In this document: positions 17,221-64,000 of the stretch, one piece after another
Position numbering within the stretch: position 1 is the stretch's first letter
Layout of the letters: each line of letters opens with the position of its first letter
NCBI GenBank assembly: GCA_013407085.1
Contig: JACCGJ010006000.1
Location: 1-64,000, forward strand
Origin: Atriophallophorus winterbourni
Taxonomy: Eukaryota; Platyhelminthes; Trematoda; Plagiorchiida; Microphallidae
DNA length: 64,000 nt
Direction of reading: 5' to 3'
Notes under the pieces: generated by a model
Databases searched by the model: none
Told to the model about the DNA's origin: nothing
What the model saw: only the letters and a program-made list of their open reading frames with translations
Position numbers and translations under genes: made by a program

Positions 17221-18016
<796 letters not shown>

Positions 18017-21355: not shown

Positions 21356-21363
21356 ATATTGCA

Positions 21364-30832: not shown

Positions 30833-30900
30833 TCGCCACCGGGACTCGAACCTGCGACCTTAGGACTGCAAGGGTGGTGGTTTCAACTTCTACCCAGAAC
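30833..30900 (-). other. tRNA-like B-box relic, right arm
   Basis: This mirrors the left-arm relic. The minus-strand B box is at 30842-30852, with the full upstream segment kept ('gcaagggtggtgg' on the plus strand). Terminator-like T runs are not placed as in a functional Pol III gene. Confidence 0.5.
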
Positions 30901-32578: not shown

Positions 32579-33290
32579 ACTTGACGTTACCTCAACAACG
32601 TTATTGTCAAAGATTCACATGCGTCTTCATATTTGTTGGTGTGAGGTATGCAATATTAGAAATAGATATCAACATCTAATTTTGTATATATGTTAAACCT
32701 TGCGACAGCTACATTAGATAAACTACTGATCTATCCAATTTGAGTCAAGCAGTAAAGCAGGCTAATCCTTATTGAAGCCAGAAAAATCGTGCGAGACTAG
32801 CGGTTGTCAGACCATTATAGCTCTCTCCGCACGTAACTTCAATCGTGAAAAAATATCTATCTATATCTATGTATTCTATCTTGTCTCTTAAAAATATGGT
32901 TTATTGATCAACGCGATCTGTTCCTTGTCTGTATTTCGCCTTCATCAATAAAATTGAAATATTTTATGCTCGCAAGTTTGCTTCTATCGGTAATTCTGCC
33001 CACTATGTTATTAAAATAATGCCTTACATTTATCGAAGTACTTGATATAAATACGTAACCCATCAGTTTTGCAGAAAGGTGACTACCAGAGACAACGAGC
33101 ATGACAAAATTTTAGGTCTTAGACACATGATTGATACCACTGATTTCCAAATATTTCCTGATTAGGATGTTTCTTATAATGTGACGTGCCATGCTATCTG
33201 AGTTTTTGTTTTGAAATTTGTTGTCCTTCCAACAAAACCGTCAACACAAATTAAGAGAAAACCTTCATAAACATCAGTGGAGTGCGGTTC

Positions 33291-36180: not shown

Positions 36181-36937
<757 letters not shown>

Positions 36938-36995
36938 CTTAAATAAATGGGCATTAATATATTATATTAATATTATATTAATATATATCAAGTAC
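36938..36995. repeat. AT-only inverted repeat between microsatellite and satellite 2
   Basis: A run of 'attaatatattatattaat' type sequence can fold on itself. It bridges the CTAT repeat and the first satellite 2 monomer, which starts near 'atatcaagtaccaagac'. Confidence 0.6.
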
Positions 36996-39852: not shown

Positions 39853-39906
39853 GCCCCCAGTTAATAACGTGCCGTTTCGCCACGGTCTGCTATCCTCATT
39901 GGGTGC

Positions 39907-40765
39907 ATGGGGATTAGGAATCAACCGACAAGGAGACTGTATTTTTACGCACCAGCGAATCGAAATACCAAACAACAAATGTCAGTTCTGAAACTTGGAA
40001 CCTGGAACGTCCGGTCCATGCATATAGGATTTCATTACGACTTCTCGAATATCAGAGGCATTAGAAAGTCCGCCGTGATTAACAACGAGCTAAAGAGGCT
40101 GAATGTCGACGTGGCTGCCCTACAAGAGACGCGCTTACCAGACACTGGTAAGCTAACAGAAAGTGATTACACATTCTTTTGGAAAGGAAGAGGTTCCGAT
40201 GAGCCTCGACTGCATGGAGTTTGGTTCGCCGTGCGAAACGACATATTAAAGCAACAGAACCGAGCAGCAGCGGGAGCGAACGAATTTGAAATCTAAATCT
40301 GAGGTGCATTACTGGTACCATTACGTTGGTCAACGTTTATGCACCGACGCTCTCTGCGACGCCTGCTGAAAAAGACGCTTTTTATCATAACCTCACAGCC
40401 GTCCTGAAAAACGTACCACAGAAAAACTGCGTAGTGGTATTGGGTGATTTCAATGCAAGAGTTGGTGCAGATTACGAATCTTGGCAAAACTGTCTCGGAA
40501 GGTTTGGTGTAGGCAAAACCAATGAAAATGGGCAATGCCTTTTAGAATAGTGCACACAGTTCAATCTTTGTGTCAGTAACACTTTTTTCAAACAAAACCA
40601 CAGCATAAAGTCTCTTGGAAGCATCATCGCTCTAAGCATTGGCATCAGCTTGATCTTATTCTTGTTAAGCGTACTAATATAGGAAGCGTGCTCCTCACCA
40701 GATCATATCAAAGCGCAGACTGCGACACTGATCATTCACTGGTCTGTGCAAAACTGAAGCTCCCC
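39907..40765 (+). pseudogene. RTE-type LINE APE endonuclease domain
   Basis: The domain is split over three frames. The first (to 40296) has 'LKLGTWNVRSM' with the catalytic Asn region and 'VAALQETRLPD' with the catalytic Glu. The second (40326-40550) has 'VNVYAPTL' and 'VVVLGDFNARVG', and ends at a TAG just after 'NGQCLLE'. The third continues as 'KVSWKHHRSKHWHQLDLIL' (frameshifted, near 40600) and 'SADCDTDHSLVCAKLKL' with the terminal Asp-His motif near 40730. All the expected catalytic motifs can still be read, so the damage is mainly frame-breaking. The domain would nick target DNA in an active element. Confidence 0.88.
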
Positions 40766-41340
40766 CACACGAGATTTCACCGCACCAAATTGTCTGCTAA
40801 GCCTAGGATAGACGTCACTCGCATGTGCGAACCTAATCTAACTGCGAGATTCGCAAAAGCCTTCACGGACGAGTTCAACAAGACAACCCCACTTGAATCT
40901 GCTTCAGAAAACTGGGAATTGATAAAAAGCTGCATATGCCGAGTCGCACTTTCCACTTTCGGTCCGAAGAAAGCTCGAACGAGCGACTGGTTCGAAGCAA
41001 ACGCTTCTGAGATGACTGCTGTGCTGGATGAGAAACGCTCAGCATTCTTGAGGTTCAAAGGTATGCCAACAGATGAAAACTTACGTCTTCTAAGAGCAGC
41101 TAGAAATAAGGTCCAACAGACTGCAAGGCGTTGTGCAAACGACTATTGGACTGAAGTTAGCCTCAATATCCAAAAAGCTGCGGATACCGGCAATTTTCAC
41201 GGTATGTATGTTGGGATCAAGACAGCCATTGGCCCAAGCAAACTTAAAACGGCTCCCATTAAGTCTTTATCTGGTAAGCCGATTGTCGACAAAACCATTT
41301 GCTTCTTCAGTGCTGGAAGGAGGGGGGTGTCCCACAAGAG
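40766..41340 (+). pseudogene. RTE-type LINE linker, internally deleted
   Basis: The frame continues from the endonuclease through a basic region ('SDWFEANASEM', 'RRCANDYWTEVSLNIQKAA') to 'SLSGKPIVDKTI' near 41295. In related elements several dozen residues should separate this from the 'CWKEGGVPQEMRD' block that opens the reverse transcriptase. Here only about ten codons and a frame change lie between them. An internal deletion near 41300-41315 is the simplest explanation. Confidence 0.7.
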
Positions 41341-42270
41341 ATGCGAGACACAAAGATCATCACGCTATTTAAGAATAAGGGTGACAGAGGCGACTGCAAC
41401 AATTACAGAGGAATCTCCCTTCTGAATGTTGTAGGCAAATTGTTTGCTAAAGTCTTACAGATCCGGCTGCAAGTTTTAGCTGATAGAATTTACTCCGAAT
41501 CTCAATGTGGCTTCCGCAAGGGAAGATCAACCGTTGACATGATCTTCTCCCTGAGACAACTTCAAGAAAAGTGTCGGGAACAGCGTATGCCATTATACGC
41601 TGTTTTCATTGATTTAAATAAGGCATTCGACTACGTCAGCAGGGAAGGTCTCTTCAAAATGCTCGATCTGATAGGCTGCACCCCAAGGCTGCTGAGACTC
41701 GTTATTTCGTTCCACTCAGGCATGAAAGGCTCAGTCCATTTTAACGGTTGCAGTTCAGAAGCATTTGAAATTCGCCGAGGCGTCAAACAAGGGTGTGTTC
41801 TTGCTCCCACGCTGTTCGGCATTTTCTTTGCTCTGCTTCTGAAGCACGCTTTTAAGACGAGAACAGAAGGCATTTACATACGCACGCGAAGTGATGGCAA
41901 GCTTTTCAACCTGAACCGGTTGAGAGCACAAACCAAAGTACGGGATGTGATAATCCGTGACCTGTTGTTTGCCGACGATGCAGCCTTTATTGCTCACTCC
42001 CAAGAGAACCTACAGTCGCTAATGGACTGTTTTTCGTCGGCATGCAAAGACTTTGGTCTAACAATCAGCATGAGCAAGACCAAAGTCCTTGGTCAAGGGA
42101 CTGTATCGCCGCCAATCATCACTGTTGGAAACTGTCAGCTCGAACCAGTACATCATTTCACATATCTTGGTTCAACCATTGCGGACAACCTCTCGCTAGA
42201 CACGGAGATTGATAAGCGGATTGGCAGAGCAGCTGTCATTTTCCCGATTGAACTCTCGTGTTTGGGGTAA
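41299..42270 (+). pseudogene. RTE-type LINE reverse transcriptase
   Basis: This is an uninterrupted 323-codon frame with the palm motifs of a non-LTR reverse transcriptase: 'DTKIITLFKNKGDRGDCNNY' region, 'GFRKGRSTVDMIFSLRQL', motif A 'AVFIDLNKAFDYV' near 41610, motif B 'GVKQGCVLAPTLFGIFF' near 41790, motif C 'LLFADDAAFIAHS' near 41970 with both Asp residues present, and 'FTYLGSTIADNLSLD' near 42160. The frame is lost by a shift near 42240. It is the best-preserved coding segment in the window but has no intact N-terminal partner. RTE or RTE-X placement is from recall of the family's wording. Confidence 0.92.
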
Positions 42271-42930
42271 CCGCAAGCTGACTGTAAAGACGAAAATGAT
42301 GGTATACAGCGCGTGCGTACTGAACGCTTTACTGTACGGCAGTAAACCTGGACCACCCACGCAAGACACGAACGGAAGCTGAATGCTTTCCATCTACGAA
42401 GCATCCGTCGTATCTTGAACATATCGTGGATGGACAGAGTGACTAACGCTGAAGTGCTTTCAAAAGTTGGTCTACAGAGCATGTTTACCCTATTACGTCA
42501 GCGCCGCCTGCGGTGGCTTGGTCATGTCTATAGAATGGAAAATGGTCGTATTCCGAAAGATCTACTCTACGGTGAGTTGCAATTAGGAAGTCGACCATTG
42601 GGCAGACCGCACTTGCGGTACAAAGATGTTTGCAAAAGAGATATGAAAGCTCTTGACATTGACCCCGCAAGCTGGGAAGAACTTGCTCTTGACCGCTCAC
42701 TTTGGAGGCATTGTGTAAAGCGTCGACTGCAAGCCGGGGAGGAGCAAATACAGCTCCTGGCTGCTGAACGCAGATCACGCCGCCGGCGTGCAACTGATGC
42801 AATACAACAGAGTTCTGACTATCGTTGCAAGCGCTGCGGGAGAGATTGTTCCTCCCGAATCGGACTGTTTAGTCATTCAAAAAGTTGCAAAACAAGATTC
42901 CAATTCATGCTAGGTGATGTACATCCTGGT
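42271..42930 (+). pseudogene. RTE-type LINE C-terminal region with CCHC finger
   Basis: After a short frameshifted part (42245-42410) the frame resumes with 'NISWMDRVTNAEVL', 'RRLRWLGHVYRMENGRIPKD', 'LGRPHLRYKDVCKRDMKALD' and a basic tail. The tail has a C-x2-C-x12-H-x3-C finger near 42825-42895 (CKRC...GLFSHSKSC), which is typical of the end of this LINE family. Coding homology stops near 42905. Satellite 2 follows at 42967. Confidence 0.88.
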
Positions 42931-42966
42931 CGACATCGACCGACGGAGGCCACCCCACACAACAAC

Positions 42967-45900
42967 ATGTTCACTGAATGGGCAATAATCATTAGAAAAT
43001 GGGCACTATATTTACGTCAAATGAATGCAAATAAACCGTATGACGTTTTTGATGATGTAGGCAAGAACTCACCTTTGAATGTTATAAGCTGAAACGCGCG
43101 ATTTTGAAGATGCAGCCGACTGGAATGACGCAACTCCTAACGTTTAAACGAGTCCGGTGTGAGCAATATCGCCATTCGTGAATTCTCATGCAATTCGAAA
43201 ATAAGCTTGGTTATTGTTACAAACAAGTATCCTGATAATTATCAAACATATCTATGTATTTCAACCAGCACCATGAATGCTAAAATCATGTCAAATACTA
43301 AAACAAAATCAAAGACTTCATGTTAACTGAATGGGCGATTATTCCTTAGGAATGCACTGCAATTTAACAGCAAATCAATGCCAATAAACCGTTCGACGTT
43401 TTTGATGATGTAAGCATGGAGTCCTAGTTGAATATTTCAAGCTCAAACTCGCGAGTTTGAAGATGCCACAGACTGGAAAGACGCAATTCCCAACGTTTAC
43501 ACGAGTGAAGTCTGAACAATATCGCAATTCGTGAATTCTCATGCTATTCGAATGTAATCTTGGCCAGTGTTACAAACAAGTATTCTGATAATTATCAATG
43601 AAATGAATGTATGTCAAACAGCATAATGAATGATAACAGCATATCAAGTACTAAGACAAATATAAAGTCTTCATGTTAACTGAATGGGCAATAATACATT
43701 AGAAATGCACTATACTTTAACGTCAAATGAATGCGAATAAACCGTATGACGTTTTTGATGATGTAAGCAAGAACTCACCTTTGAATGTTATAAGCTGAAA
43801 CGCGCGAGTTCGAAGATGCAGCCGACTGGAATGACGCAACTCCTAACGTTTAAACGAGTCCGGTGTGAGCAATATCGCCATTCGTGAATTCTCATGCAAT
43901 TCGACATTGAGCTTGGTTATTGTTACAAACAAGTATTCTGATAATTATCAAACAAGTCTATGTATTTCAACCAGCACCATGAATGATAAAATTATGTCAA
44001 ATACTGAAACGAAATTAAAGACTCCATGTTAACTGAATGGGCGATAATTCCTTAGGAATGCACTAGACTTAAACAGCAAATCAATGCCAATAAACCGTTT
44101 GACGTTTTTGATGATGTAAGCAAGAAGTCACCGTTGAATATTTCAAGCTCAAACTCGCGAGTTTGAAGATGCCACAGACTGGAAAGACGCAATTCCTAAC
44201 GTTTACACGAGTGAGGTCTGAACAATATCGCCATTCGTGAATTCTCATGCTATTCGAATGTAATCTTGGCCAGTGTTACAAACAAGTATTCTGATAATTA
44301 TCAAAGAAATGTATGTATGTCAAACAGCATCATGAATGATAAAAGCATATCAAGTACTAAGACAAATATAAAGTCTTCATGTTAACTGAATGGGCAATAA
44401 TACATTAGAAATGCACTTATTTTAACGTCAAATAATGCAAATAAACCGTATGACGTTTTTGATGATGTAAGCAAGAACTCACCTCTGAATGTTATAAGCT
44501 GAAACGCGCGAGTTCGAAGATGCAGCCGACAGGAATGACGCAACTCCTAACGTTTAAACGAGTCCGGTGTGAGCAATATCGCCATTCGTGAATTCTCATG
44601 CAATTCGAAGATAAGCTTGGTTATTATTACAAACAATATTCTTATAATTATCAAACAAGTCTATGTATTTCAACCAGCACCATGAATGCTAAAATCATGT
44701 CAAATACTAAAACAAAATCAAAGAATTCATGTTAACTTAATGGGCGATTATTCCTTAGGAATGCACTGCAATTTAACAGCAAATCAATGCTAATAAACTG
44801 TTTGACGTTTTTGATGATGTGAGCAAGAAGTCACTGTTGAATATTTCAAGCTTAAACTCGCGAGTTTGGAGATGCCACAGACTGGAAAGACGCAATTTCT
44901 AACGTTTACACGAGTGAGGTCTAAACAATATCGCCATTCGTGAATTCTCATGCTATTCGAATGTAATCTTGGTCAGTGTTACAAACAAGTATTGTGATAA
45001 TTATCGAAGAAATGTATGTATGTCAAACAGCATAATGAATGATAAAAGCATATCAAGTACTAAGACAAATATAAAGTCTTCATGTTAACTGAATGGGCAA
45101 TAATACATTAGAAATGCACTATACTTTAACGTCAAATGAATGCAAATAAACCGTATGACGTTTTTGATGATGTAAGCAAGAACTCACCTTTGAATGTTAT
45201 AAGGTGAAACGCGCGCGTTTGAAGATGCAGCCGACTGGAATGACGCAACTCCTAACGTTTAAACGAGTCCGGTGTGAAGCAATATCGCCATTCGTGAATT
45301 CTCATGCAATTCGAAAATAAGCTTGGTTATTGTTACAAACAAGTATTCTGATATCTATCAAACATGTCTATGTATTTCAACCAGCACCATGAATGCTAAA
45401 ATCATGTCAAATACTAAAACAAAATCAAAGACTTCATGATAACTGAATGGGCGATTATTCCTTAGCAATGCACAGCACTTTAACAGCAAATCAATGCCAA
45501 TAAACCGTTAAACGTTTTTGATGATGTGAGCAGGAAGTCACCGTTGAATATTTCAAGCTTACACTCGCGATTTTGAAGATGCCACAGACTGGTAAGACGC
45601 AACTTCTAACGCTTACACGAGTGAGGTCTGAACAATATCGCCATTCGTGAATTCTCATGCTATTCGAATGTAATCTTGGCCAGTGTTACAAACAAGTATT
45701 CTGATAATTTTCAAAGAAATGCATGTATGTCAAACAGCATCATGAATAATAAAAGCATTTCAAGTACTAAGACAAATATAAAGTCTTCATGTTAACTGAA
45801 TGGGCAATAATACATTAGAAATGCACTATACTTTAACGTCAAATGAATGCGAATAAACCGTATGACGTTTTTGATGATGTAAGCAAGGACTCACCTTTGA

Positions 45901-48900
45901 ATGTTATAAGCTGAAACGCGCGAGTTCGAAGATGCAGCCGACTGGAATGACGCAACTCCTAACGTTTAAACGAGTCCGGTGTGAGCAATATCGTCATTCG
46001 TGAATTCTCATGCAATTCGAAAATGAGCTTGGTTATTGTTACAAACAAGTATTCTGATAATTATCAAACATATCTATGTATTTCAACCAGCACCATGAAT
46101 GCTAAAATCATGTCAAATACTAAAACAAAATCAAAGAATTCATGTTAACTTAATGGGCGATTATTCCTTAGGAATGCACTGCAATTTAACAGCAAATCAA
46201 TGCTAATAAACTGTTTGACGTTTTTGATGATGTGAGCAAGAAGTCACTGTTGAATATTTCAAGCTTAAACTCGCGAGTTTGGAGATGCCACAGACTGGAA
46301 AGACGCAATTCCTAACGTTTACACGAGTGAGGTCTAAACAATATCGCCATTCGTGAATTCTCATGCTATTCGAATGTAATCTTGGTCAGTGTTACAAACA
46401 AGTATTCTGATAATTATCAAAGCTATGTATGTATGTCAAACAGCATCATGAATGATAAAAGCATATCAAGTACTAAGACAAATATAAAGTCTTCATGTTA
46501 ACTGAATGGGCAATAATACATTAGAAATGCACTATACTTTAACGTTAAATGAATGCAAATAAACCGTATGACGTTTTTGATGATGTAAGCAAGAACTCAC
46601 CTTTGAATGTTATAAGCTGAAACGCGCGAGTTTGAAGATGCAGCCGACTGGAATGACGCAACTCCTAACGTTTAAACGAGTCCGGTGTGAGCAATATCGC
46701 TATTCGTGAATTCTCATGCAATTCGAAAATAAGCGTGGTTATTGTTACAAACAAGTATTCTGATAATTATCAAACAAGTCTATGTATTTCAACCAGCACC
46801 ATGAATGCTAAAATCATGTCAAATACTAAAACAAAATCAAAGACTTCATGATAACTGAATGGGCGATTATTCCTTAGCAATGCACAGCACTTTAACAGCA
46901 AATCAATGCCAATAAACCGTTAAACGTTTTTGATGATGTGAGCAGGAAGTCACCGTTGAATATTTCAAGCTTACACTCGCGATTTTGAAGATGCCACAGA
47001 CTGGTAAGACGCAACTTCTAACGTTTACACGAGTGAGGTCTGAACAATATCGCCATTCGTGAATTCTCATGCTATTCGAATGTAATCTTGGCCAGTGTTA
47101 CAAACAAGTATTCTGATATTTATCAAAGAAATGTATGTATGACAAACAGCATCATGAATGATAAAAGCATATCAAGTACTAAGACAAATATAGAGTCTTC
47201 ATGTTAACTGAATGGGCAATAATACATTAGAAATGCACTATACTTTAACGTCACATGAATGCAAATAAACCGTATAACGTTTTTGTTGATGTAAGCAAGA
47301 ACTCACCTTTGAATGCTATAAGCTGAAACGCGCGAGTTCGAAGATGCAGCCGACTGGACTGACGCAACTCCTAACGTTCAAACGAATCCGGTGTGAGCAA
47401 TATCGCCATTCGTGAATTCTCATGCAATTCGAAAGTAAGCTTGGTTATTGTTACAAACAAGTATTCTGATAATTATCAAACAAGTCTATGTATTTCAACC
47501 AGCACCATGAATGCTAAAATCATGTTAAATACTAAAACAAAAATAAAGACTTCATGTTAACTGAATGGGCGATAATTACTTGGGAACGCACTACACTTTA
47601 ACAGCAAATCAATGCTAATAAACCGTTTGACGTTTTTTGATGATGTAAGCAAGAAGTCACCGTTGAATATTTCAAGCTTAAACTCGCGAGTTTGAAGATG
47701 CAACAGACTGGAAAGACGCAATTCTAACGTTACACGAGTTAGTCTGAACACATATACGCCTTCGTTGAATTCTCATTGCTATTCGGAATTATCTTGGCCA
47801 GTGGTACAAACACTTATCTCCAGACTAATTATCAAAGAAATGATGTATGTCACCTCAGCATAATTACAGGTAAAAGCTATCAAGTACTAAGACAACTATA
47901 AAGTCTTCATGTTAACTGCATGGGCAATAATACATTTAGAAAGAAATGCACTTTTACTTTAACGTCAAATGACTGACAAATAAACCGTATGACGTTTTTG
48001 ATGATGTAAGCAAGAACCCCACATTTGAATGTTATACGCTGCAAACGCGCGAGTTTGAATATGCAGCCGACTGGAAAGAAGCAACTCCTAACGTTTAAAC
48101 GCGTCCGGTGTGAGCAATATCGCCATTCGTGAATTCTCATGCAATTCGAAATTAAGCTTGGTTATTGTTACAAACAAGTATTCTGATAATTATCAAACAA
48201 GTCTATGTATTTCAACCAGCACCATGAATGCTAAAATCATGTTAAATACTAAAACAAAATCAAAGACTTCATGATAACTGAATGGACGATTATTCCTCAG
48301 GAATGCACTACACTTTAACAGCAAATCAATGCCAATAAACCGTTTGACGTTTTTGATGATGTAAGCAAGAAGTCACCGTTGAATATTTCAAGCTTAAACT
48401 CGCGAGTTTGTAGATGCCACAGACTGGAAAGACGCAATTCCCAACTTTTACACGAGTGAGGTATGAACAATATTACAATTCATGAATTCTCATGCAATTC
48501 GAAAATAAGCTTGGTTATTGTTACAAACAAGTATTCTGATAATTATCAAACACGTCTATGTATTTCAACCAGCACCATGAATGTTAAAATCATGTCAAAT
48601 ACTAAAACAAAATCAAAGACTTCATGATAACTGAATGGGCGATTATTCCTAAGGAATGCACTGCACTTTAACAGCAAATCAATGCCAATAAACCGTTTGA
48701 CGTTTTTGATGAAGTAAGCTAGAAGTCACCGTTGAATATTTCAAGCTTAAACTCGCGAGTTTGAAGATGCCACAGACTGGAAAGACGCAATTCCCAACGT
48801 TTACACGAGTGAGGTCTGAACAATATCGCCATTCGTGAATTCTTCACGCTATTCGAATGTAATCTTGGCCAGTGTTACAAACAAGTATTCTGATAATTAT

Positions 48901-51766
48901 CAAAGAAATGTATGTATGTCAAACAGCATAATGAATGATAAAAGCATATCAAGTACTAAGACAAATATAAAGTCTTCATGTTAACTGAATGGGCAATAAT
49001 ACATTAGAAATGCACTATACTTTAACGTTAAATGAATGCAAATAAACCGTATGACGTTTTTGATGATGTAAGCAAGAACTCACCTTTGAATGTTATCAGC
49101 TGAAACGCGCGAGTTTGAAGATGCAGCCGACTGGAATGACGCAAATCCTAACGTTTAAACGAGTCCGGTGTGAGCAATATCGCCATTCGTGAATTCTCAT
49201 GCAATTCGGAAATAAGCTTGGTTATTGTTACAAACAAGTATTCTGATAATTATCAAACAAGTCTATGTATTTCAACCAGCACCATGAATGCTAAAATCAT
49301 GTCAATACTAAACAAAATCAAAGACTTCATGATAACTGAATGGGCGATTATTCCTTAGGAATGCACTACACTTTAACAGCAAATCAATGCCAATAAACCG
49401 TTTGACGTTTTTGATGATGTAAGCAAGAAGTCACCGTTGAATATTTCAAGCTTAAACTCGCGAGTTTGAAGATGCCACAGACTGAAAAGACGCAATTCCC
49501 AACTTTTACACGAGTGAGGTCTGAACAATATTACAATTCATGAATTCTCATGCAATTCGAAAATAAGCTTGGTTATTGTTACAAACAAGTATTCTGATAA
49601 TTATCAATCAAGTCTATGTATTTCAACCAGCACCATGAATGCTGAAATCATGTCAAATACTAAAACAAAATCAAAGACTTCATGATAACTGAATGGGCGA
49701 TTATGCCTTAGGAATGCACTGCACTTTAACAGCAAATCAATGCCAATAAGCCGTTTGACATTTTCGATGATGTAAGCAAGAAGTGACCGTTGAATATTTC
49801 AAGCTTAAACTCGCGAGTTTGAAGATGCCACAGACTGGAAAGACGCAATTCCCAACGTTTACACGAGTGAGGTCTGAACAATTTTACAATTCATGATTTT
49901 TCATGCTATTCGAATGTAATCTTGGCCAGTGTTACAAACAAGTATTCTGATAATTATCAAAGAAATGTATGTATGTCAAACAGCCTAGTGAATGATAAAA
50001 GCATATCAAGTACTAAGACAAATATAAAGTCTTCATGTTAACTGAATGGGCAATAATACAGTAGAAATGCACTATACTTTAACGTCAAATGGATGCAAAT
50101 AAACCGTATGACGTTTTTGATGATGTAAGCAAGAACTCACCTTTGAATGTTATAAGCTGAAACGCGCGAGTTTGAAGATGCAGCTGACTGGAATGACGCA
50201 ACTCCTAACGTTTAAACGAGTCCGGTGTGAGCAATATCGCCATTCGTGAATTCTCATGCAATTCGAAAATAAGCTTGGTCATTGTTACAAACAAGTATTC
50301 TGATAATTGTCAAACAAGTCTATGTATTTCAACCAGCACCATGAATGCTACAATCATGTCAAATACTAAAACAAAATCAAAGACTTCATGATAACTGAAT
50401 GGGCGATAATTCCTCATGAATGCACTGCACTTTAGCAGCAAATCAATGCCAATAAACCATTTGACGTTTTTGATGATGTGAGCAAGAAACTAACAGTTGA
50501 ATATTTCAACCTGAAACGCGCGAGTTTGAAGATGCAGCCGACTGGAATGACGCATTTCCTAACGTTTACACGAGTGAGGTCTGAACTATATCGCCATTCG
50601 TGAATTCTCATGCTATTCGAATGTAATCTTGGCCAGTGTTACAAACAAGTATTGTGATAATTATCAAAGAAATGTATGTATGTCAAACAGCATCATGAAT
50701 GATAACAGCATATCAAGTACTAAGACAAATATAAAGTCTTCATGTTAACTGAATGGGCAATAATACATTAGAAATGCACTATACTTTAACGTCAAATGAA
50801 TGCAAATAAACCGTATGACGTTTTTGATGATGTAAGCAAGAACTCACCTTTGAATGTTATAAGCTAAAACGCGCGGGTTTGAAGATGCTGCCGACTGGAA
50901 TTACGCAACTCTAAACGTTTAAACGAGTCCAGTGTAAGCAATATCGCCATTCGTGAATTCTCATGCAATTCGAAAATAATTTTGGTCAGTGTTACATACA
51001 AGTAATCTGATATTTATCAAACAAATCTTCGTATTTTATCTAGCACCATAATAGCTTAAATCATATGAAATACTAAAACAAAATAAAGTCTTCATGTTAA
51101 GTTATTGGGCAATAATACATTAAGAATATAATATACTTAAACATGAAATCAATGCTAATAAACCGTTTGACGTTTTTGATGATGTAAGCAAGAACTAACC
51201 GTTGAATGTTTCAAGCTGAAACGCGCGAGTTTGAAGATGCAGCAGACTGGAATGACGCAACCCCTTACGTTTAAACGAGTCAGGTCTGAACAATATCGCT
51301 ATTTGTGAATTCCCATGCAATTCGAAAATAATCTTGGTCAGTGTTGTAAACAATTATTCTGATGATTATCAAACAAATCTTCGTATTTCAACCAGCACCA
51401 TAAATGGTAAAAGCATATCAAATACTAAGACAAAAATAAAGTTTTCATGTCAATTGAATGGGCAATACTACGTTAGAAATGCACTATACTTTTACATCAT
51501 TTCAATGACAAAATCCGTTTGACGTTGATGATAAGATGTATGCAAGAACTCACCGTTGAATGTTTCAAGCTGAATCGTGCGAGTTTGAAAATGCAGCAGA
51601 TTGGAATTACGCAACTTTTAACGTTTAAACGAATCAGGTCTGAACAATATCGCCATTTGTTAATTCTCATGCAATTCGAAAATAAAATTAATCAGTGTTA
51701 CAAAAATATAATCTGATGATTATCAAACTAATCTATTCATTTCAAACAGCACAATGAATCCTAAAG
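42967..51766 (+). repeat. Satellite 2 array, main segment (A/B dimers)
   Basis: About 25 monomers have anchors near 42977, 43330, 43683, 44035, 44386, 44740, 45090, 45446, 45796, 46153, 46503, 46857, 47207, 47563, 47917, 48281, 48636, 48987, 49336, 49690, 50044, 50399, 50753, 51104 and 51457. Type A has 'aaataaaccgtatgacg' and 'gcagccgactggaatgacg'; type B has 'aataaaccgtttgacg' and 'gccacagactggaaagacg'. They alternate A-B from 42977 to about 48280, giving ~706 bp dimers. Beyond that are hybrid monomers and B-B neighbours; after 50753 monomers become single-type and diverged. No coding potential is seen. Confidence 0.96.
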
Positions 51767-52420
51767 GCTACCGTACGAGCAGTTCTAATGTATGGCTGCG
51801 AGACGTGGACGCTGTGGCAAGCCGATACTCAACGATTATTGACGTTTGATCATCGTTGCCTGCGGAGTATAGCTCGTTTAAGCTGGCAACAGAAAGTCAA
51901 AAAAGATGACGTCAGAAGGGCAGTCCTCGCCGATCGCTCTGTGCCACTCTCCGATCATATATCCATGTGCCAGCTGAGATGGCTGGGGCACGTTCTCCGT
52001 ATGGATGAGCGACGCCTTTCTCGCCTAGCTCTTTTTGCTCTCACTGGACCTGATTGAAAACGTTGCCGTGGCGGACAAAGGAATACCTGGCGGAAGACCC
52101 TCAAGCGTCTAACAGCTCCACTAGCCATCGTAGGAACATCGCGCTCACCTAGGTTGGGTCCGAGGGACCGTAAAGATATGTGGCTGATAACACTCAGTGT
52201 GATGGCAAAAGAAAGGAACCAGTGGCGAGAATCCTGCCGTGCTTGTGTTCCCGTTTATCAGTGACCCTCCCCATCCCTTATTCCAAAGGCACAAAAGATC
52301 ACAAACGGCATGTGTAAACAGAGAGACATCATCATCATCACGTAACTTCTTCATGGTATACTTGTTGGCACATCGTCTGTAAAGACTTGTGTGATGATAA
52401 TATTAATAAATAATAAAAGA
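51767..52420 (+). mobile_element. 5'-truncated RTE-type LINE 3' end
   Basis: A second, different RTE-type element sits in satellite 2 as a 654 bp 3' piece. It starts in the post-reverse-transcriptase region and ends with a short TAA-rich tail ('tattaataaataataaaag'), after which the satellite resumes at 'caaatactaagac'. A weak 'taaag/taaaag' pair flanks it. 5' truncation with a simple-repeat tail is the usual product of target-primed reverse transcription. Confidence 0.88.
51768..52263 (+). pseudogene. RTE-type LINE pol C-terminus with single nonsense change
   Basis: The frame has 'LMYGCETWTLWQADTQRLL', 'FDHRCLRSIARLSW', 'HISMCQLRWLGHVLRMDERR', then a TGA near 52055 where the family has Trp (TGG to TGA). 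It continues in the same frame with 'KRCRGGQRNTWRKTLKRL', 'LGPRDRKDMWLITLSVMA' and 'RNQWRESC' to a natural stop near 52263. Apart from the one stop, this part is intact, which suggests a younger insertion than the larger RTE-like element. The wording resembles RTE elements known from schistosomes. Confidence 0.85.
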
Positions 52421-52655
52421 AAATCAAATACTAAGACAAAAATAAAGTCTTCAAGTTAACTGAATGTGCAATAATACATTAGGAATGCACTATACATTAC
52501 CATCAGATCAGGGCAAAAAACTGTATGACATTTTTCATGATGTAAGCAAGAGTGCTTTGTTGAATGTTTCAAAGCGAAACGCGCGAGTTTGAAGATGCAG
52601 CAGACTGAAATGACGCAACTCTTAACGTTTAAACGAGTCCAGTGTGAGCAATATT
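52421..52655 (+). repeat. Satellite 2, last partial monomer
   Basis: Satellite 2 resumes after the LINE piece ('gaatgtgcaataatacatta', 'gcagcagactgaaatgacg') and breaks at 'agtgtgagcaatat' at 52655, where satellite 3 begins with no spacer. Confidence 0.92.
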
Positions 52656-55600
52656 GTGCATCTTGACCTTGTAGTTTAATGCCATCATCGAACGAATTTT
52701 CATTCATCTTAACGGCGATCGGTCGCTTTACAAGATGGCCACTGCTTTTTCGATCAAAGACCACGTTCCGAGTCTGTAGCACGGGTCTTCGTTGAACACT
52801 GGATTTCCCATTTTGGCACACCATTTATCATCGCAACCGACCATGGCGCTCGTTTTTAATCGACAATGTTCCGAGATTTGACTCTACAACTTGGCTCACA
52901 GCAAATTCAAAAGACCGCCAACAACCCCAACGCGAATTAATTGGTTGATGGCGCCACACCGGCAGGTCGAATGCACTTTAGCTGCTAAACTCATCCTAAA
53001 GGATGCACTGAGAAATTATCACATCCTCTTCTTGGAATTCGTTCTACCATCTTAGAATGCATTCATTGCTCAGCCACAGAGTTAGTTTGTGGCACTACCT
53101 TGTGTCTTCCCGGTGAACTGGTTGTGCCTTGCCAGTCTTTACCTTCTATGTCAGATTACATACGTCACTGGCGATCGTTCGTTTCGAAGTTGGATTATAG
53201 AACTCCACGAGAGCGTCATGTACACCAACAGAAATCACCTGATCGCGATACGTGTGATTTTTTATGCGACGTGTGTCCTGATGTGAACCAGTTCAACTAT
53301 CATAGACCACGCAGAGCTATTAAGTGTAAACACAAGTACGTCATTTTGAATATGAAAGGTCGACGCCTCACGGTTCCTATTGAACGTCTAAAACCAGCTT
53401 TCGTTGATCTTTAGCCACCAAATCAATCAACACTGCTTTCCCCTCAGTCACAACCGCCGTGTAATCCTCATGTGCCTACCACCTCCCTCGTTCATCCCAA
53501 TCCTACAGTCCCTTCCAGTCCCTTTCAGTACCATCCATTTCCGTTTAAACTCGAACCGATAGACAAGTGTGTTGGTCCAACCGTCGAAAGAACAAAATAA
53601 CACGACGTACGATCACACCTAACATCCACTTTGGGCATTCAAACGGCCAATTCTCTCATGTGCATCTTGACCTCGTAGGTTGGTGCCCTCACCGAACGGA
53701 TATTCATTCATTCAAACTGCGATCGATCGCATTACAAAATGGCCGATTGCTTTTCCTCTCAAAGATCACATTTTGAGTGTGTAGCACACGTCTTTGTCGA
53801 ACACTGGATTGCCTATTTCGGCACACCATTTTCCAACGCAATCGACCCCGGCGCTAACTTTCAATTGATATTGTTCCGAGATTTGACTATACACCTTGGC
53901 TCTCAGCACAGCCGAACTACCGCCTACCATCCTAACGTGAATGGATTAGGTGATGGCGCCCCACCAGCAGGTCAAAGCCGCTTTTGCTGGTCAGTCCGAT
54001 CCTAAAAGATGCACTAAGAATTTATCACTTCCCCTTCTTGGAATTCGTTCTACCATGAAAGAAGACATGCAATGCTCAGCCGCAGAGTTAGTTTGCTGCA
54101 CTACCTTGTGTCTCTCCGGTGAACTCGTAGTGCCATGCCAGTCATTACCTTCTATGTCCGATTACATAACTCGCCTGCGATCGTTTGTGTCGAAGTTGAA
54201 TTATACGACTCCACGACAGCGCCGTGTCCACCAACAGAAATCACCTCATCGCGATACGTGCGATTTTATTTGTGCGATGTGTGTCCTTATATAAACCACT
54301 TCAACCATCCTTTCATAGATCACGCAGAGCTACTAAGCGTAAGCACAAGTACGTCATTTTGAATATGAATGGTCGAAACCTCACGGTTTTTATTGATCGT
54401 CTAAAACCAGCTTTCGTTGAGCTTAAGCCACCAAATCTATCAACGATGCTTTCCCCTCAATCACAACCGCCGTGTAATCCTCATGTGCCTACCACCGCCG
54501 TCGGTCATCCCAATCCTCCAGTCCCATCCATTTCCGTTGAAACTCAAAACGGTAGACAAGTGCGTTGACCCAATCGTCGAAAGAACAAAATATCACGACG
54601 TACGATCACACCTAACATTCACTTTGGGCATTCAAACGGTCAATTCTCTCATGTGCATCTTGACCTCTTCGGTTAATGCCATCATCGAACGGATATTCAT
54701 TCATCCTTATCGCGATCTATCGCCTTACAAGATGGCCCACTGCTTTTTCGATCAAAGTCCACGTTCTGTGTCTGTAACACGCGTCTTTGTCGAACCCCGG
54801 ATTGCCTATATTGGCACACCATTTTTCAACGCAACCGACCCTGGCGCTTCCTTCAAATCGATAGTGTTCTGAGATTTGACCATACACCGTGGCTCTCAGC
54901 ACATCCGAACAACCGCCTACTATTCCACCGCGAATGGATTCGTTGATGGCGCCCCGCCGTCAGGTAAAAGCCGCTTTTGCTGGTCAGTCCGATCCTTATA
55001 GTTGCACTGAGAATTTATCACTTCCTCTTCTTGGAATTCGTTCTACCATTATAAAAGATGTGCAATGCTCAGCCGCAGAGTTAGTTTGTGGCACTACCTT
55101 GTGTCTGCCCGGTAAACTCGTTCTCCCTTTCCAGTCATTACCTTCTATGTCAGATTACATAACTCGCTTGCCATCGTTTGTGTCGAAGTTGGAATATACG
55201 ACACAATTTTAGCGCCATATCGACCAACAGAAATCACCTCATCGCGATACGTGCGATTTTATTTGTGCGATGTGTGTCCCTATATAAACCACTTCAACCA
55301 TCCTATCATAGATCACGCAAAGCTACTAAGCGTGAACACAAGTACGTCATTTTCAATATGAATGGTCGAAACCTCACGGTTTTTATTGATCGTCTGAAAC
55401 CAGCTTTCGTTGATCCTAAGCCACCAAATCTATCAACGATGCTTTCCCCTCAATCACAACCGCCGTGTAATCCTCATGTGCCTATTACCTCCCTCTTTCA
55501 TCCCAATCCTCCAGTACCATCCATTTCCGTTTAAACTCGAACCGATAGACAAGTGTGTTGGTCCAACCGTCGAAAGAACAAAATAACACGACGTACGATC

Positions 55601-58600
55601 ACACCTAACATCCACTTTGGGCATTCAAACGACCAATTCTCTCATGTGCATCTTGACCTCGTAGGTTGGTGCCCTCACCGAACGCATATTCATTCATCCT
55701 AATCGCGATCTATCGCTTTACAAGATGGCCCACTGCTTTTTCGATCAAAGTCCACGTTCTGTGTCTGTAACACGCGTCTTTGTCGAACACTGGATTGCCT
55801 ATTTCGGCACACCATTTTTCAAAGCAACCGACCCTGGCGCTCACTTTCAATCGAGATTGTTCCGAGATTTGACCATACACCTTGGCTCTCAGCACAGCCG
55901 AACTACCGCCTACCATCCTAACGTGAATGGATTAGGTGATGGCGCCCCACCAGCAGGTCAAAGCCGCGTTTGCTGGTCAGTCCGATCCTAAAAGATGCAC
56001 TAAGAATTTATCACTTCCCCTTCTTGGAATTCGTTCTACCATGAAAGAAGACATGCAATGCTTAGCCGCAGAGTTAGTTTGCTGCACTACCTTGTGTCTC
56101 TCCGGTGAACTCGTAGTGCCATGCCAGTCATTACCTTCTATGTCCGATTACATAACTCGCCTGCGATCGTTTGTGTCGAAGTTGGATTATACGACTCCAC
56201 GACAGCGCCGTGTCGACCAACAGAAATCACCTCATCGCGATACGTGCGATTTCATTTGTGCGATGTGTGTCCCTATATAAACCACTTCAACCATCCTCAT
56301 AGAACACGCAGAGCTACTAAGCGTAAACACAAGTACGTCATTTTGAATATGAATGATCGAAACCTCACAGTTTCTATTGATCGTCTAAAACCAGCTTTCG
56401 TTGAGCTTAAGAGACCAAATCAATTGACACTGCTTTCCACTCAATCACAACTGCCCTAATGTGCCTACCACCGCCGTCGGTCATCCCAATCCTCCAGTCC
56501 CATCCATTTCCGTTGAAACTCGAAACGGTAGACAAGTGCGTTGACCCAATAGTCGAAAGAAGAAAATATCACGACGTATGATCACACCTAACATTCACTT
56601 TGGGCATTCAAACGGTCAATTCTCTCATGTGCATCTTGACCTCTTCGGTTAATGCCATCATCGAACGGATATTCATTCATCCCTTATCGCGATCTATGGC
56701 TTTACAAGATGGCCCACTGCTTTTTCGATCAAAGTCCACGTTCTGTGTCTGTAACACGCGTCTTTGTCAAACCCCGGATTGCCTATGTTGGCACACCATT
56801 TATCAACGCAACCGACCCTGGCGCTCACTTTCAATCGAGATTGTTCCGAGATTTGACTATACACCTTGGCTCTCAGCACAACCGAACCACCGCCTACAAT
56901 CCCACCGCGAATGGATTGGTTGATGGCGCCCCGCCGGCAGGTCGAAGCCGCTTCTGCTGGTCAGTCCGATCCTTATTGTTGCACTGAGAATTTATCACTT
57001 TCTCTTTTCGGAATTCGATCTACCATGAAAGAAGTCATGCAATGCTCAGCCGCAGAGTAAGTTAGTAGCAATTCCTTGTGTCCACCGGTGAACACTTTCT
57101 GCCTTCCCAGTCATTACCTTCTATGTCAGATTACATTACTCGCTTGCGATCGTTTGTGTCGAAGTTGGAATATACAACTCAACTTGAGCGCCATGTCGAC
57201 CAACAGAAATCACCTCATCGCGATACGTGCGATTTCATTTGTGCGATGTGTGTCCCTATATAAACCACTTCAACCATCCTCATAGAACACGCAGAGCTAC
57301 TAAGCGTATACACAAGTACGTCATTTTGAATATGAATGATCGAAACCTCACAGTTTCTATTGATCGTCTAAAACCAGCTTTCGTTGAGCTTAAGAGACCA
57401 AATCAATTGACACTGCTTTCCACTCAATCACAACTGCCCTAATGTGCCTACCACCGCCGTCGGTCATCCCAATCCTCCAGTCCCATCCATTTCCGTTGAA
57501 ACTCGAAACGGTAGACAAGTGCGTTGACCCAATAGTCGAAAGAAGAAAATATCACGACGTATGATCACACCTAACATTCACTTTGGGCATTCAAACGGTC
57601 AATTCTCTCATGTGCATCTTGACCTCTTCGGTTAATGCCATCATCGAACGGATATTCATTCATCCCTTATCGCGATCTATGGCTTTACAAGATGGCCCAC
57701 TGCTTTTTCGATCAAAGTCCACGTTCTGTGTCTGTAACACGCGTCTTTGTCAAACCCCGGATTGCCTATGTTGGCACACCATTTATCAACGCAACCGACC
57801 CTGGCGCTCACTTTCAATCGAGATTGTTCCGAGATTTGACTATACACCTTGGCTCTCAGCACAACCGAACCACCGCCTACAATCCCACCGCGAATGGATT
57901 GGTTGATGGCGCCCCGCCGGCAGGTCGAAGCCGCTTCTGCTGGTCAGTCCGATCCTTATTGTTGCACTGAGAATTTATCACTTTCTCTTTTCGGAATTCG
58001 ATCTACCATGAAATAAGTCATGCAATGCTCAGCCGCAGAGTAAGTTAGTAGCAATTCCTTGTGTCCACCGGTGAACACTTTCTGCCTTCCCAGTCATTAC
58101 CTTCTATGTCAGATTACATTACTCGCTTGCGATCGTTTGTGTCGAAGTTGGAATATACAACTCAACTTGAGCGCCATGTCGACCAACAGAAATCACCTCA
58201 TCGCGATACGTGCGATTTTATTTGTGCGATGTGTGTCCCTATATAAACCACTTCAACCATCCTTTCATAGATCACGCGGAGCTACTGAGCGTAAACACAA
58301 GTACGTCATTTTGAATATGAATGGTCGAAACCTCACGGTTTTTATTGATCGTCTAAAACCAGCTTTCGTTGAGCTTGAGCCACCAAATCTATCAACGATG
58401 CTTTCCCCTCAATCACAACCGCCGTGTAATCCTCATGTGCCTATTACCTCCCTCGTTCATCCCAATCCTCCAGTACCATCCATTTCCGTTGAAACTCGAA
58501 ACGGTAGACAAGTGCGTTGAACCTATGGTCGAAAGAAGAAAATATCACGACGGACGATCACACCTAACATTCACTTTGGGCATTCAAACGACCAATTCTC

Positions 58601-61600
58601 TCATGTGCATCTTGACCTCGTAGGTTGGTGCCCTCACCGAACGCATATTCATTCATCCTAATCGCGATCTATCGCTTTACAAGATGGCCCACTGCTTTTT
58701 CGATCAAAGTCCACGTTCTGTGTCTGTAACACGCGTCTTTGTCGAACACTGGATTGCCTATTTCGGCACACCATTTTTCAACGCAACCGACCCTGGCGCT
58801 AACTTTCAATTGATATTGTTCCGAGATTTGACCATACACCTTAGCTCTCAGCACAGCCGAACTACCGCCTACCATCCTAACGTGAATGGATTAGGTGATG
58901 GCGCCCCACCAGCAGGTCAAAGCCGCTTTTGCTGGTCAGTTCGATCCTAAAAGATGGAATAAGAATTTATCACTTTCCCTTCTTGGAATTCGTTCTACCG
59001 TGAAAGAAGACATGCAATGCTCAGCCGCAGAGTTAGTTTGCTGCACTACCTTGTGTCTCTCCGGTGAACTCGTAGTGCCATGCCAGTCATTACCTTCTAT
59101 GTCCGATTACATAACTCGCCTGCGATCGTTTGTGTCGAAGTTGGATTATACGACTCCACGACAGCGCCGTGTCGACCAACAGAAATCACCTCATCGCGAT
59201 ACGTGCGATTTTATTTGTGCGATGTGTCCCTATATAAACCACTTCAACCATCCTATCATAGAACACGCAGAGCTACTAAGCGTAAACACAACTACGTCAT
59301 TTTGAATATGAATGATCGAAACCTCACAGTTTCTATTTATCGTCTAAAACCAGCTTTCGTTGAGCTTGAGAGACCAAATCCATTAACACTGCTTTCCCCT
59401 AAATCACAACTGCCCTAATGTGCCTACCACCGCCGTCGGTCATCCCAATCCTCCAGTCCCATCCATTTCCGTTGAAACTCGAAACGGTAGACAAGTGCGT
59501 TGACCCAATGGTCGAAAGAAGAAAATATCACGACGGACGATCACACCTAACATTCACTTTGGGCATTCAAACGACCAATTCTCTCATGTGCATCTTGACC
59601 TCTTCGGTTAATGCCATCATCGAACGGATATTCATTCATCCCTTATCGCGATCTATCGCTTTACAAGATGGCCCACTGCTTTTTCGATCAAAGTCCACGT
59701 TCTGTGTCTGTAACACGCGTCTTTGTCAAACCCCGGATTGCCTATTTTGGCACACCATTTATCAACGCAACCGAGCCTGGCGCTCCCTTTAAATCGATAG
59801 TGTTCCGAGATTTGATCATACAACTTGGCTCTCAGCACATCCGAACAACCGCTTACTATTCCACCGCGAATGGATTCGTTGATGGCGCCTCGCCGGCAGG
59901 TTGAAGCCGCTTCTGCTGGCCAGTCCGATCCTTATAGTTACACTGAGAATTTATCACTTCCTCTTCTTGGAATTCGTTCTACCATGAAAGAAGTCATGCA
60001 ATGCTCAGCCGCAGAGTAAGTTAGTAGCAATACCTTGTGTCCACCGGTGAACACTTTCTGCCATGCTAGTCATTACCTTCTATCTCAGATTACATAACTC
60101 GCTTGCGATCGTTTGTGTCGAAGTTGAATTATACGACTCCACGACAGCGCCGTGTCCACCAACAGAAATCACCTCATCGCGATACGTGCGATTATATTTG
60201 TGCGATGTGTGTCCCTATATAAACCACTTCAACCATCCTTTCATAGATCATGCAGAGCTACTAAGCGTAAACACAAGTACGTCATTTTGAATATGAATGG
60301 TCGAAACCTAACGTTTTTTATTAATCGTCTTAAATCAGCTTTCGTTGAGCTTAGGCCACCAAATCTATCAACGATGCTTTCCCCTCAATCACAACCGCCG
60401 TGTAATCCTCATGTGCCCACTACCGCCGTCGGTCATCCCAATCCTCCAGTCCCATCCATTTCCGTTGAAACTAGAAACGGTAGACAAGTGCGTTGACCCA
60501 ATCGTCGAAAGAACAAAATATCACGACGTACGATCACACCTAACATTCACTTTGGGCATTCAAACGGTCAATTCTCTCATGTGCATCTTGACCTCTTCGG
60601 TTAATGCCATCATCGAACGGATATTCATTCATCCTTATCGCGATCTATCGCCTTACAAGATGGCCCACTGCTTTTTCGATCAAAGTCCACGTTCTGTGTC
60701 TGTAACACGCGTCTTTGTCGAACCCCGGATTGCCTATATTGGCACACCATTTTTCAACGCAACCGACCCTGGCGCTTCCTTCAAATCGATAGTGTTCTGA
60801 GATTTGACCATACACCGTGGCTCTCAGCACATCCGAACAACCGCCTACTATTCCACCGCGAATGGATTCGTTGATGGCGCCCCGCCGTCAGGTAAAAGCC
60901 GCTTTTGCTGGTCAGTCCGATCCTTATAGTTGCACTGAGAATTTATCACTTCCTCTTCTTGGAATTCGTTCTACCATTATAAAAGATGTGCAATGCTCAG
61001 CCGCAGAGTTAGTTTGTGGCACTACCTAGTGTCTGCCCGGTAAACTCGTTCTCCCTTTCCAGTCATTACCTTCTATGTCAGATTACATAACTCGCTTGCC
61101 ATCGTTTGTGTCGAAGTTGGAATATACGACACAATTTTAGCGCCATATCGACCAACAGAAATCACCTCATCGCGATACGTGCGATTTTATTTGTGCGATG
61201 TGTGTCCCTATATAAACCACTTCAACAATCATGTCATACATCACGCAGAGCTACTAAGCGTAAACACAAGTACGTGATTTTGAATATGAATCGTTGATGC
61301 CTCACGGTTTTTATTGATCGTCTAAAACCAGCTTTCGTTGAGCTTAAGCCACCAAATCCATCAACGATGCTTTTCCCTCAATCACAACCGCCGTGTAATC
61401 CTCATGTGCCTACCACCGCCGTCGGTCATCCCAATCCTTCAGTCCCATCCATTTCCGTTGATATTCGAAACGGTATACAAGTGCGTTGGCCCAACCGTCG
61501 AAAGAACAAAATATCACGACGAACGATCACACCTAACATCCACTCTGGGCATTCGAACGCTCAATACTTTCATGTGCATCTTGACCTCGTCGGTTAATGC

Positions 61601-61745
61601 CATCATTGAACGAATCTTCATTCATCCTAATCGCGATCTATCGCTATACAAGATGGCCCACTGCTTTTTCGATCAAAGACCACATTCTGAGTTTGTAGCA
61701 CGTGTGTTCGTCGAACACTGGATTGCTTAATTCGGAAAACCATTT
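52656..61745 (+). repeat. Satellite 3: tandem array of gypsy integrase-derived units
   Basis: The anchor 'gtgcatcttgacc' occurs at 52656, 53660, 54653, 55646, 56629, 57612, 58605, 59588, 60581 and 61574, so the unit lengths are 1004, 993, 993, 983, 983, 993, 983, 993 and 993, followed by a partial unit. Each unit translates, in shifting frames, to the second half of a Ty3/gypsy pol: integrase core, C-terminal region ('LSLPLLGIRST', 'CSAAELV'), 'KYVILNMNGRNLT...DRLKPAFVE', and the pol end ('ETRNGRQVR'), before returning to 'RRTITPNIHFGHSN' and the next integrase core. There are no LTRs and no gag, protease, RT or RNase H. All units carry stops or frameshifts. Confidence 0.95.
53739..54400 (+). 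pseudogene. Gypsy integrase/pol-end, representative satellite 3 unit
   Basis: This unit shows the fold of the gene best. Upstream at 53655 is 'SHVHLDLVG' (first catalytic Asp), then a shifted frame with 'NGYSFIQTAIDR' and 'WPIAFPLKDH'. From 53760 follow 'VFVEHWIAYFGTPF', 'AIDPGANFQ' (second Asp, in the position of TDRGAQF) and 'SRTTAYHPNVNGLG'. The catalytic Glu, expected right after NGLV in the family (NGLVERFH), is replaced: the units read Gly-Asp or Val-Asp followed by a +1 shift. The frame then moves to 'QQVKAAFAGQSDP', 'LPLLGIRSTMKEDMQCSAAE' and finally 'KYVILNMNGRNLT'. An integrase from any of these units could not be active. Confidence 0.85.
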
Positions 61746-62589
61746 AACATCGCCTGCAACATTTGCTCTGTCCTAAATCTCCATGGATCATATTATCTTG
61801 ACATAATATCACACCTTATACGCAATAGTTGAACTTACATATGTGTAATGAAATTCAAGTTCCAGATGACGGTTTTCTACAGAGATTTTAAATCCAAAAT
61901 ACTTTGCAAGTATTCCTTTTTGGCTGTCACGCAAACTTTTGTGCATATCGATAAACAGCAGCTTAATAGCGAGTGAAGCTGTTGTGCAAGAGAATAATGA
62001 TGGCTATCAGATGTAGAAACTTAGGTCAGGGATTAGTACTCTCGTACAAAATCATATGTAGCAGCTTGAGAAGACTACAATCACAACGCTCGCGTGAGTA
62101 AATGCCATGTGATCTCTTCCTAAAACTAGCTTCAGAAAATGATCAAAGAAGATGCCGAACAGTTTGAAAGCAAAAATACATTGTTGTTTATATCCCGCAA
62201 AATGTCGAAAGCTTCAGTAATGTAGACCTTAAATTTGACTGACCGATTTGTCAGATTCGAAAGAAAAACGAGCTTGAGCAGATATTGAGAGTTAGCCTTC
62301 AAACTCAAGACAGCAAAACCCACCCCTGGTTAGGTAGTCTGAACATTTTTATAAATCATGCAAACGCTGAAATTGCGAGTTTATTCTCAACGATATCTCA
62401 GTGGATTCTAAAAAAACACTATCAGCTAATTCTATTAGATATACAAAAGTGTTGCATAACAGTTACAGAAGGCATCAAGAAGAATGATTATTTTGCAACT
62501 GAGGAAGACAAATCTATAACTCTTAGCCTTAAAAGGCGTGATGAACTTATTGTCCCTTATCTCATTTGAGATTCTACTCTAACAATCAT
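61746..62589. other. AT-rich stretch between satellite 3 and Penelope-like element
   Basis: Satellite 3 ends near 'accatttaacatcgcc'. No gene is recognised here. A 94-codon plus-strand frame at 62285-62569 opens at TTG, has no known motif, and may lie over the downstream end of the Penelope-like element on the other strand. Confidence 0.45.
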
Positions 62590-62670
62590 CTTTGTTACAG
62601 TCACCAATAAATCTGTTTGTATCGTAGAACAGGCGACTTGGGTTTGGTGGGCCGGGCATAGTATTTGACA

Positions 62671-63400
62671 TTACTGGCTGACTATGTTGTAGGCTAGAAT
62701 CCTTGCATGTCCTGGATCTTGACGTGTTCTCATTGGTCTGTAGACACCATCCAATCGAATGTGCTCTTTGATATATTGTAGGGTCGAATACCACGCTTCG
62801 AGGAATTCTCGAACGTGACGAGTACTGCCTTTGGTGATGATTTCCATACTATTCCAATTGAATTCGTGTCCTTCATGATCCATGTGTACCGATGTTACTG
62901 ATTTGTGGTGATGTCGTCGTGTAGCCAGTTTGTGTTCATGTATCCTTGTTTTAACCTTCTCCCGATGTGTCCAATATAACATTTCTCACGATAGGAACAC
63001 GGGATTCTGTTCACGACGTTATTTCGTCCAACCTTAGCAAACATGCCCTTGACCTTGACTAGTTGGCTTCTCAGTGCTGAAGCTGGCTTGTGTGCTACAC
63101 TAATTCCGAGCGGCCGTAGTATTCTTGCGGCAGTGTTAACCTTGCTGTGTTCGTGCTGTTCACACGCGATTGGGTTGTCGAGTCCATGTTGCGAATTCTG
63201 AAGTCCTTTTGGTTTCCATTCTTCCGCGAGTGTTTGAATAAATGTTTCTCCTCTTCTTCCCAGAGATCGTCGGTAGTGCAGTGTTTTTTGCGCGGTTGAA
63301 TTGTGTTCAATCGCAGCTTCGCTTGTGGGTAGCCAGGTGCTTCTTTTTAAAGTTCCACATTTGATCCGTGTGTGTTTGTTTCCTTTATAGACTAGTTTCT
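62671..63400 (-). pseudogene. Penelope-like connector and GIY-YIG endonuclease
   Basis: Downstream of the reverse transcriptase, 'RKQTHTDQMWNF' near 63360-63390 matches the conserved RKPTHTDQYLNF-type block of the family. After a damaged stretch (63095-63330), 'LRSQLVKVKGMF' near 63060 and 'NRIPCSYREKCYIGHIGRRL' near 62960-63015 mark the start of the GIY-YIG domain. 'KTRIHEHKLATRR' near 62920-62955 supplies the helix with the catalytic Arg, and 'STRHVREFLEAWY' near 62790-62830 the Glu-bearing helix. Frames break between the cysteine-bearing strand and 'YIG'. The element's tail follows to about 62590. Confidence 0.85.
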
Positions 63401-63464
63401 AAGTTTCTATTCTGTTCTTCACGCGTTCACATACAGAAATGGTAGACAGTTTTTCCAATTCTGT

Positions 63465-64000
63465 CTATTTCGTAAATTGAATTCCAATGAAGACGCAATT
63501 CAGTAGATGGTGCGCATTTTCCAAATTTTCTTTTTTTAGAATCACGAACGTAACATCGACGTATCGGATCCAGATTTTGGGTTGGATCAGCGGTAAAGCG
63601 ATACGTTCAAGATATGCATTACGGCTTCGGCGAGCAACCCAGATATTTGAGATCCCATTTGAGAACCTTTCATTTGTGTATACAAACCATTGCTGAATTT
63701 CACATTCGTCTGCAAACACAATTATACTAACTGTAGTATACTCTTTTTGGTCAGTCGGTTTCCATTGTACTCCGTTTCGCGTTCGTCCAGCAGTTTCGAT
63801 TTGGTTTGCAGCACTAAGATAGTGCCGATAGATGTAAATTGCGCTGTCACGTCAAAAAAACCACGATTTCTTCATCTTCCAAATTCACGTCCTTTATCTT
63901 CTGCGGAAATTCAGTTACGGAATAATCTGATCCTTGATCACCGCGAAAGAAATTCTTTTTGACTTCATCGACATTTGAGTATTTGTCAATCCTCTTGTGC
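63465..64000 (-). pseudogene. Penelope-like reverse transcriptase (partial)
   Basis: Motif A can be read as 'VVFFDVTAQFTSI' near 63825-63880, with a frame change just after the Phe-Phe. Then 'LCLQTNVKFSNG' and 'QMKGSQMGSQISGLLAEAVM' (the family's GSxxS block) lie near 63620-63720. Motif C is 'IRYVDVTFVI' near 63540-63570; the family has YVDD, so the second catalytic Asp is changed to Val. The wording is distinctive for Penelope rather than LINE or LTR reverse transcriptases. The region is split by at least two frame changes and cannot be active. Confidence 0.87.

Follow-up and report, generated by a model that had tools for sequence, protein, structure and literature searches.

A run of head-to-tail units in a contig of the trematode Atriophallophorus winterbourni (JACCGJ010006000.1, assembly GCA_013407085.1) raises the question of what sequence the units were made from, whether they still encode a protein, and how they came to be repeated. 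A preliminary description had read the run as a satellite made from a retrotransposon integrase gene. The analysis covered a stretch of 64,000 nucleotides (positions 1 to 64,000, forward strand), called the window below.

Organization of the array

Within the window, the array was a single 9.1-kb stretch of head-to-tail TE-segment units. TRF with longer periods gave a period of 993, with 9.2 copies and 89% matches, at 52655-61745. When unit 56600-57582 was compared with the window by blastn, ten head-to-tail places were found from 52655 to 61753, and there was no match elsewhere in the window. Both searches bore out the earlier count of nine full units plus one partial unit, 983-1004 bp long and head to tail. 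Cut in phase from 52655, the complete units measured 1004, 993, 993, 983, 983, 993, 983, 993 and 993 bp, followed by 181 bp (Table 1). For the numbering u1-u10, a phase 28 bp earlier than the one starting at 52655 was used. Mutual identity among u2-u9 was 88.2-97.7% (mean 91.4%, gaps left out); u1 was the outlier, with 83.8-84.8% identity to u2-u9, and individual units carried indels of their own. The repetition is far beyond chance, and the array is a TE-derived tandem repeat, consisting of head-to-tail units of a TE segment.

Table 1. Features of the array and its flanks, in window positions
Feature	Positions	Strand	Basis
Fragment of 353-bp satellite, adjoining the array on the left	52404-52654	+	Sequence comparison
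Unit 1, most diverged, 1004 bp; holds ORF 52989-53414	52655-53658	+	Unit alignment, tblastn
Units 2-9, head to tail, 983 or 993 bp each	53659-61572	+	TRF, blastn
Example pol-end/integrase-start join, 22-58 bp before boundary 54624/54631	54573-54609	+	tblastn HSP ends
B4 and B5, neighboring re-phased units, 2 differences; recent tandem duplication	56246-58211	+	Re-phased alignment
One unit spanned end to end by P0002 residues 72-402	59513-60520	+	One tblastn HSP at 27% identity, interrupted by stops and partly out of frame
Partial last unit, 181 bp	61573-61753	+	blastn
Right flank; weakly similar to the non-LTR element at 41689-41913 and 42118-42183	61754-62700	.	Sequence comparison

Source and extent of the repeat unit

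Single reading frames identified the unit weakly, and clear homologues were obtained only with a profile. The Pfam family rve was reported in 3 of 12 array frames (E = 0.0075, 0.014 and 0.014), all under the curated cut-off. The read-through of unit 1 matched no Pfam family, and two single-sequence searches of a large protein collection with it returned nothing at E ≤ 1e-3. Profile A4, composed of the unit-1 frame and in-frame pieces of other units, matched 57 proteins from 2248 candidates at E ≤ 10, with E values from 2.6e-37 (best) to 1.6e-8 (weakest). PF00665 was present in 32 of these proteins and PF17921 in 13; named homologues included a Gag-Pol of Habropoda, a transposon 412-like Pol of Trichonephila, and Sparganum and Spirometra proteins. 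By profile similarity, the source of the unit is a retrotransposon integrase core together with the pol C-terminal region. The source element was probably of the Ty3/gypsy class, judging from the homologue names (Gag-Pol, transposon 412-like) and from the class of 412, which we take to be a Ty3/gypsy element.

Closer placement was not obtained: in a rough tree of 49 sequences, the unit was not placed in any clade (support 0.000). Searches of solved structures returned retroviral integrases as weak best matches (E = 0.18, 0.013 with a seven-row profile, and 0.023), the first of them near noise since a potassium-channel chain came next at E = 0.63. The structure predicted from a single sequence had a mean pLDDT of 36, too low for use. 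Viral contigs were also scanned and gave 54 pattern matches, yet no relative by tblastn.

The 57 homologues were compared with the window by tblastn, giving 1140 HSPs, of which 1128 fell in the array zone (52-62 kb), every one on the + strand; the other 12 lay outside it. The P0002 match that spans a unit end to end (Table 1) comprises 331 residues, and five of the nine units measure 993 bp, or 331 codons. Integrase-start HSPs crossing a unit boundary (n = 136) began most often 46 bp before it (89 HSPs) or 37 bp before it (20), the rest beginning 100 to 17 bp before; at the example join, the commonest integrase match start was 54578, 46 bp before the boundary. Among 36 pol-end HSPs, 31 stopped 22-58 bp before a boundary and 5 earlier. 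Together, these starts and stops place the join within 22-58 bp before the unit boundary. Its partners are the pol end, a few residues from the homologues' last residue, and residues just past the zinc-finger cysteines. The fusion of the pol C-terminus to the next integrase that had been described was therefore found, with one correction: the integrase part begins slightly earlier than the core, where the start had been set. Pol-end and integrase-start matches shared a frame in five of the six units listing both (u2, u3, u6, u8 and u9; not u7).

Each unit thus extends from immediately past the integrase zinc finger almost to the end of pol. As this segment fills the whole unit, LTR, gag, protease, RT and RNase H have no place in it, and the earlier statement that the units hold the integrase-to-pol-end part alone agrees with a unit length that is wholly accounted for. 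Judged from that filled length, the unit would fail as a full Ty3/gypsy LTR retrotransposon, which has LTRs, gag, protease, RT and RNase H.

Coding state of the units

The regions of both catalytic aspartates aligned with the homologues. The catalytic-glutamate motif was altered in all nine units, with the same change relative to the homologues. In u2-u9, the reading frame changed, by an identical step, between the open stretch preceding this motif and the one following it. Unit 1 did not have that step, and P0001 residues 37-283 matched it in one HSP and one frame, interrupted by stops. Intact catalytic D, D and E with an open frame are lacking in the units. Raw counts of changes at codon positions 1/2/3 were 27/29/27, 32/21/32 and 30/26/19 in three segments, with no third-position excess in any of the three. 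One stretch of ~75 codons was stop-free in the coding frame in six of nine units (u2 and u4-u8), which we interpret as a vestige of its coding past. The common glutamate change, the frame break in u2-u9 and the lack of a third-position excess together argue that a dead fragment was amplified and that the array is non-coding.

Exchange among units

Depending on the phase in which the array was cut, seven re-phased units had a mean best identity between 94.6% (worst phase) and 97.6% (cut at alignment column 600-630). At this best phase, the neighbors B4 and B5 were 99.8% identical, B2 and B8 differed at 15 sites (98.5%), and B3 and B6 at 36 sites (96.4%). B7 shared 21 sites with B4 and B5, 8 with B3 and B6, and 4 with B2 and B8. 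Near sites formed fewer incompatible pairs than in permuted orders: none of 2000 permutations reached the observed value for u1-u9 or for B1-B8, and p was 0.0015 for B2-B8; some of this clustering in the original phase is a product of the phase chosen. The shortage of incompatible pairs among near sites indicates that segments were exchanged between units. Unequal exchange, which had been put forward earlier as an inference, has thereby left signs both in the re-phased duplications and in the site patterns. The whole-unit duplications and mosaic sites fit unequal exchange plus conversion. Similar units are not always neighbors (B2/B8, B3/B6), which simple neighbor exchange predicts poorly and which is not fully explained.

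Neighboring repeats

The 353-bp satellite that adjoins the array on the left fills 36985-39852 and 42966-51765, with a 706-bp dimer period, and had no match in 61740-62700. Its blocks are split at ~39853-42965 by a non-LTR retrotransposon with an RT domain (Pfam, E = 5.5e-32). A fragment at 51766-52403 also interrupts the satellite; the satellite phases overlap by ~15 bp across it, the pattern expected of a target-site duplication, and in our reading it is a candidate non-LTR retrotransposon tail. No Rfam match reached the gathering score in the window. At E ≤ 1, the only family matched in 36950-62000 was an unrelated one (two matches), and no hammerhead was found, so the 353-bp satellite carries no sign of SMalpha/W36 identity. 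ARAGORN found no tRNA. Minus-strand ORFs at 62671-63851 presumably resemble a Penelope-like element, and two of them had no Pfam match.

Further to the left, a large inverted duplication (10903-21363 / 24863-34919) was aligned in three blocks of 95.3, 97.2 and 97.9% identity. A 720-bp satellite lies at the outer end of both arms, at 4-12529 (17.4 copies, 93%) and ~33293-34919; two of its ORFs had no curated domain match. Long AAT and TATC microsatellites occur at 17222-17718 and 36185-36937. Each arm of the duplication also carries one copy of a Ty3/gypsy-like integrase zinc-finger piece, at 20623-20835 and, inverted, at 25391-25603. By tblastn, this piece has no overlap with the segment that makes up the array units.

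No parent element was found in the window by tblastn with the 57 integrase proteins, whose only matches outside the array were to the zinc-finger piece at 20.6 and 25.5 kb (12 HSPs).

Origin of the array

The best explanation, which we hold to be very probable, is that a decayed Ty3/gypsy segment was joined head to tail, expanded, and partly homogenized by unequal exchange and gene conversion. A Ty3/gypsy element would first have decayed, with loss of integrase function. A segment of ~993 bp, from past the integrase zinc finger to near the pol end, would then have been joined head to tail by illegitimate recombination, and the repeat would later have expanded and been partly homogenized through unequal exchange and gene conversion. 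The resulting array would make no integrase and would decay neutrally. What was observed directly is the anatomy of the array, the lesions common to its units, codon-position counts without a third-position excess, duplications of whole units and mosaic sites; from these we infer that there was an initial join and that the driver was unequal exchange, not rolling-circle amplification.

One uniform join and head-to-tail copies, as observed, would also be yielded by an extrachromosomal circle on which the segment was amplified by rolling circle and then reinserted. The units differ by up to 16%, and the re-phased pairs differ in age (2, 15 and 36 differences), so such amplification cannot have been the only step. 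This route is rather unlikely, and it could be the first step of the decay-and-exchange history favored above.

A tandem duplication born inside a retrotransposon and spread by it, the array being an internal part of a mobile element, would accord with the frame agreement of pol end and integrase start in five of six units. A shared frame has a chance of 1/3 and the units are not independent; moreover, the 353-bp satellite forms the left flank and no integrase protein matched either flank, and we give this alternative very little weight. Slightly less credible again is an assembly artefact, either nested full elements that were collapsed or copies duplicated by the assembler. B4 and B5, which are neighbors differing at only 2 sites, would suit such duplication, but divergence among the other re-phased units ranges from 1.5% to 17% and they have private indels, differences that assembly software would be unlikely to create. 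Least credible of all is a selected, expressed cluster of integrase-derived genes, to which the ~75-codon stretch open in six of nine units might point and against which stand the changed catalytic motif in all nine, the broken frame in u2-u9 and the absent third-position excess.

Comparison with known satellites

According to one review, LTR, gag or pol domains can give rise to satellites (PMC12628747). A second gives LINE ORF and gag satellite examples and reports no conclusive preference for any element part, while noting a predominance of LTRs, TIRs and other non-coding parts among satellite sources (PMC9659126). The preliminary description had called a coding seed unusual; the latter statement speaks for that view, and the precedents from gag, pol, LINE ORF and protease speak against it.

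W2.2 of Schistosoma mansoni (709-711 bp, 65% identity over 607 bp to Saci-1, in the protease part; PMC8490949) is likewise a long-period tandem repeat from a protein-coding part of an LTR retrotransposon; it differs in deriving from protease rather than integrase and in reaching up to 34 copies per array, against nine here. S. mansoni W7.2 is a 980-bp tandem family of 29 copies (PMC8490949), and W7, of 1000 bp, was classed as a DNA transposon by combined automatic tools (PMC3701142, PMC8490949). Both resemble the array in unit length and tandem layout, on comparison by description only, and W7 differs from it by that classification. The rye E3900 and wheat 250-bp repeats are also Ty3/gypsy-type coding parts made tandem (PMC3648361, PMC9659126), but from gag rather than integrase, and in plants. 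Ogre 3'UTR satellites and CRM1TR/CRM4TR share a derivation from Ty3/gypsy elements (PMC7004042, PMC3648361), with a UTR or LTR rather than coding sequence as the source.

No integrase-derived satellite appeared in titles and abstract openings of the related literature or in the passages checked of PMC5278356 and PMC6444444, which carry integrase and satellite terms. Given the coding-seed precedents (gag, pol, LINE ORF, protease), the array belongs to a kind already known, to which it adds an integrase-derived example. We consider it improbable that it is the first described satellite consisting wholly of an integrase-coding segment, begun by one in-frame joining of integrase to integrase within a dead element, and belonging to a large sex-chromosome- or centromere-linked family.

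The array reveals no new mechanism. It is a clear example of a defined coding piece of a transposon turning satellite-like, in which the boundaries of the seed, its broken state and the later whole-unit duplications can be seen in one 9-kb stretch, and it lends support to the idea that tandem repeats can be seeded from any portion of an element.
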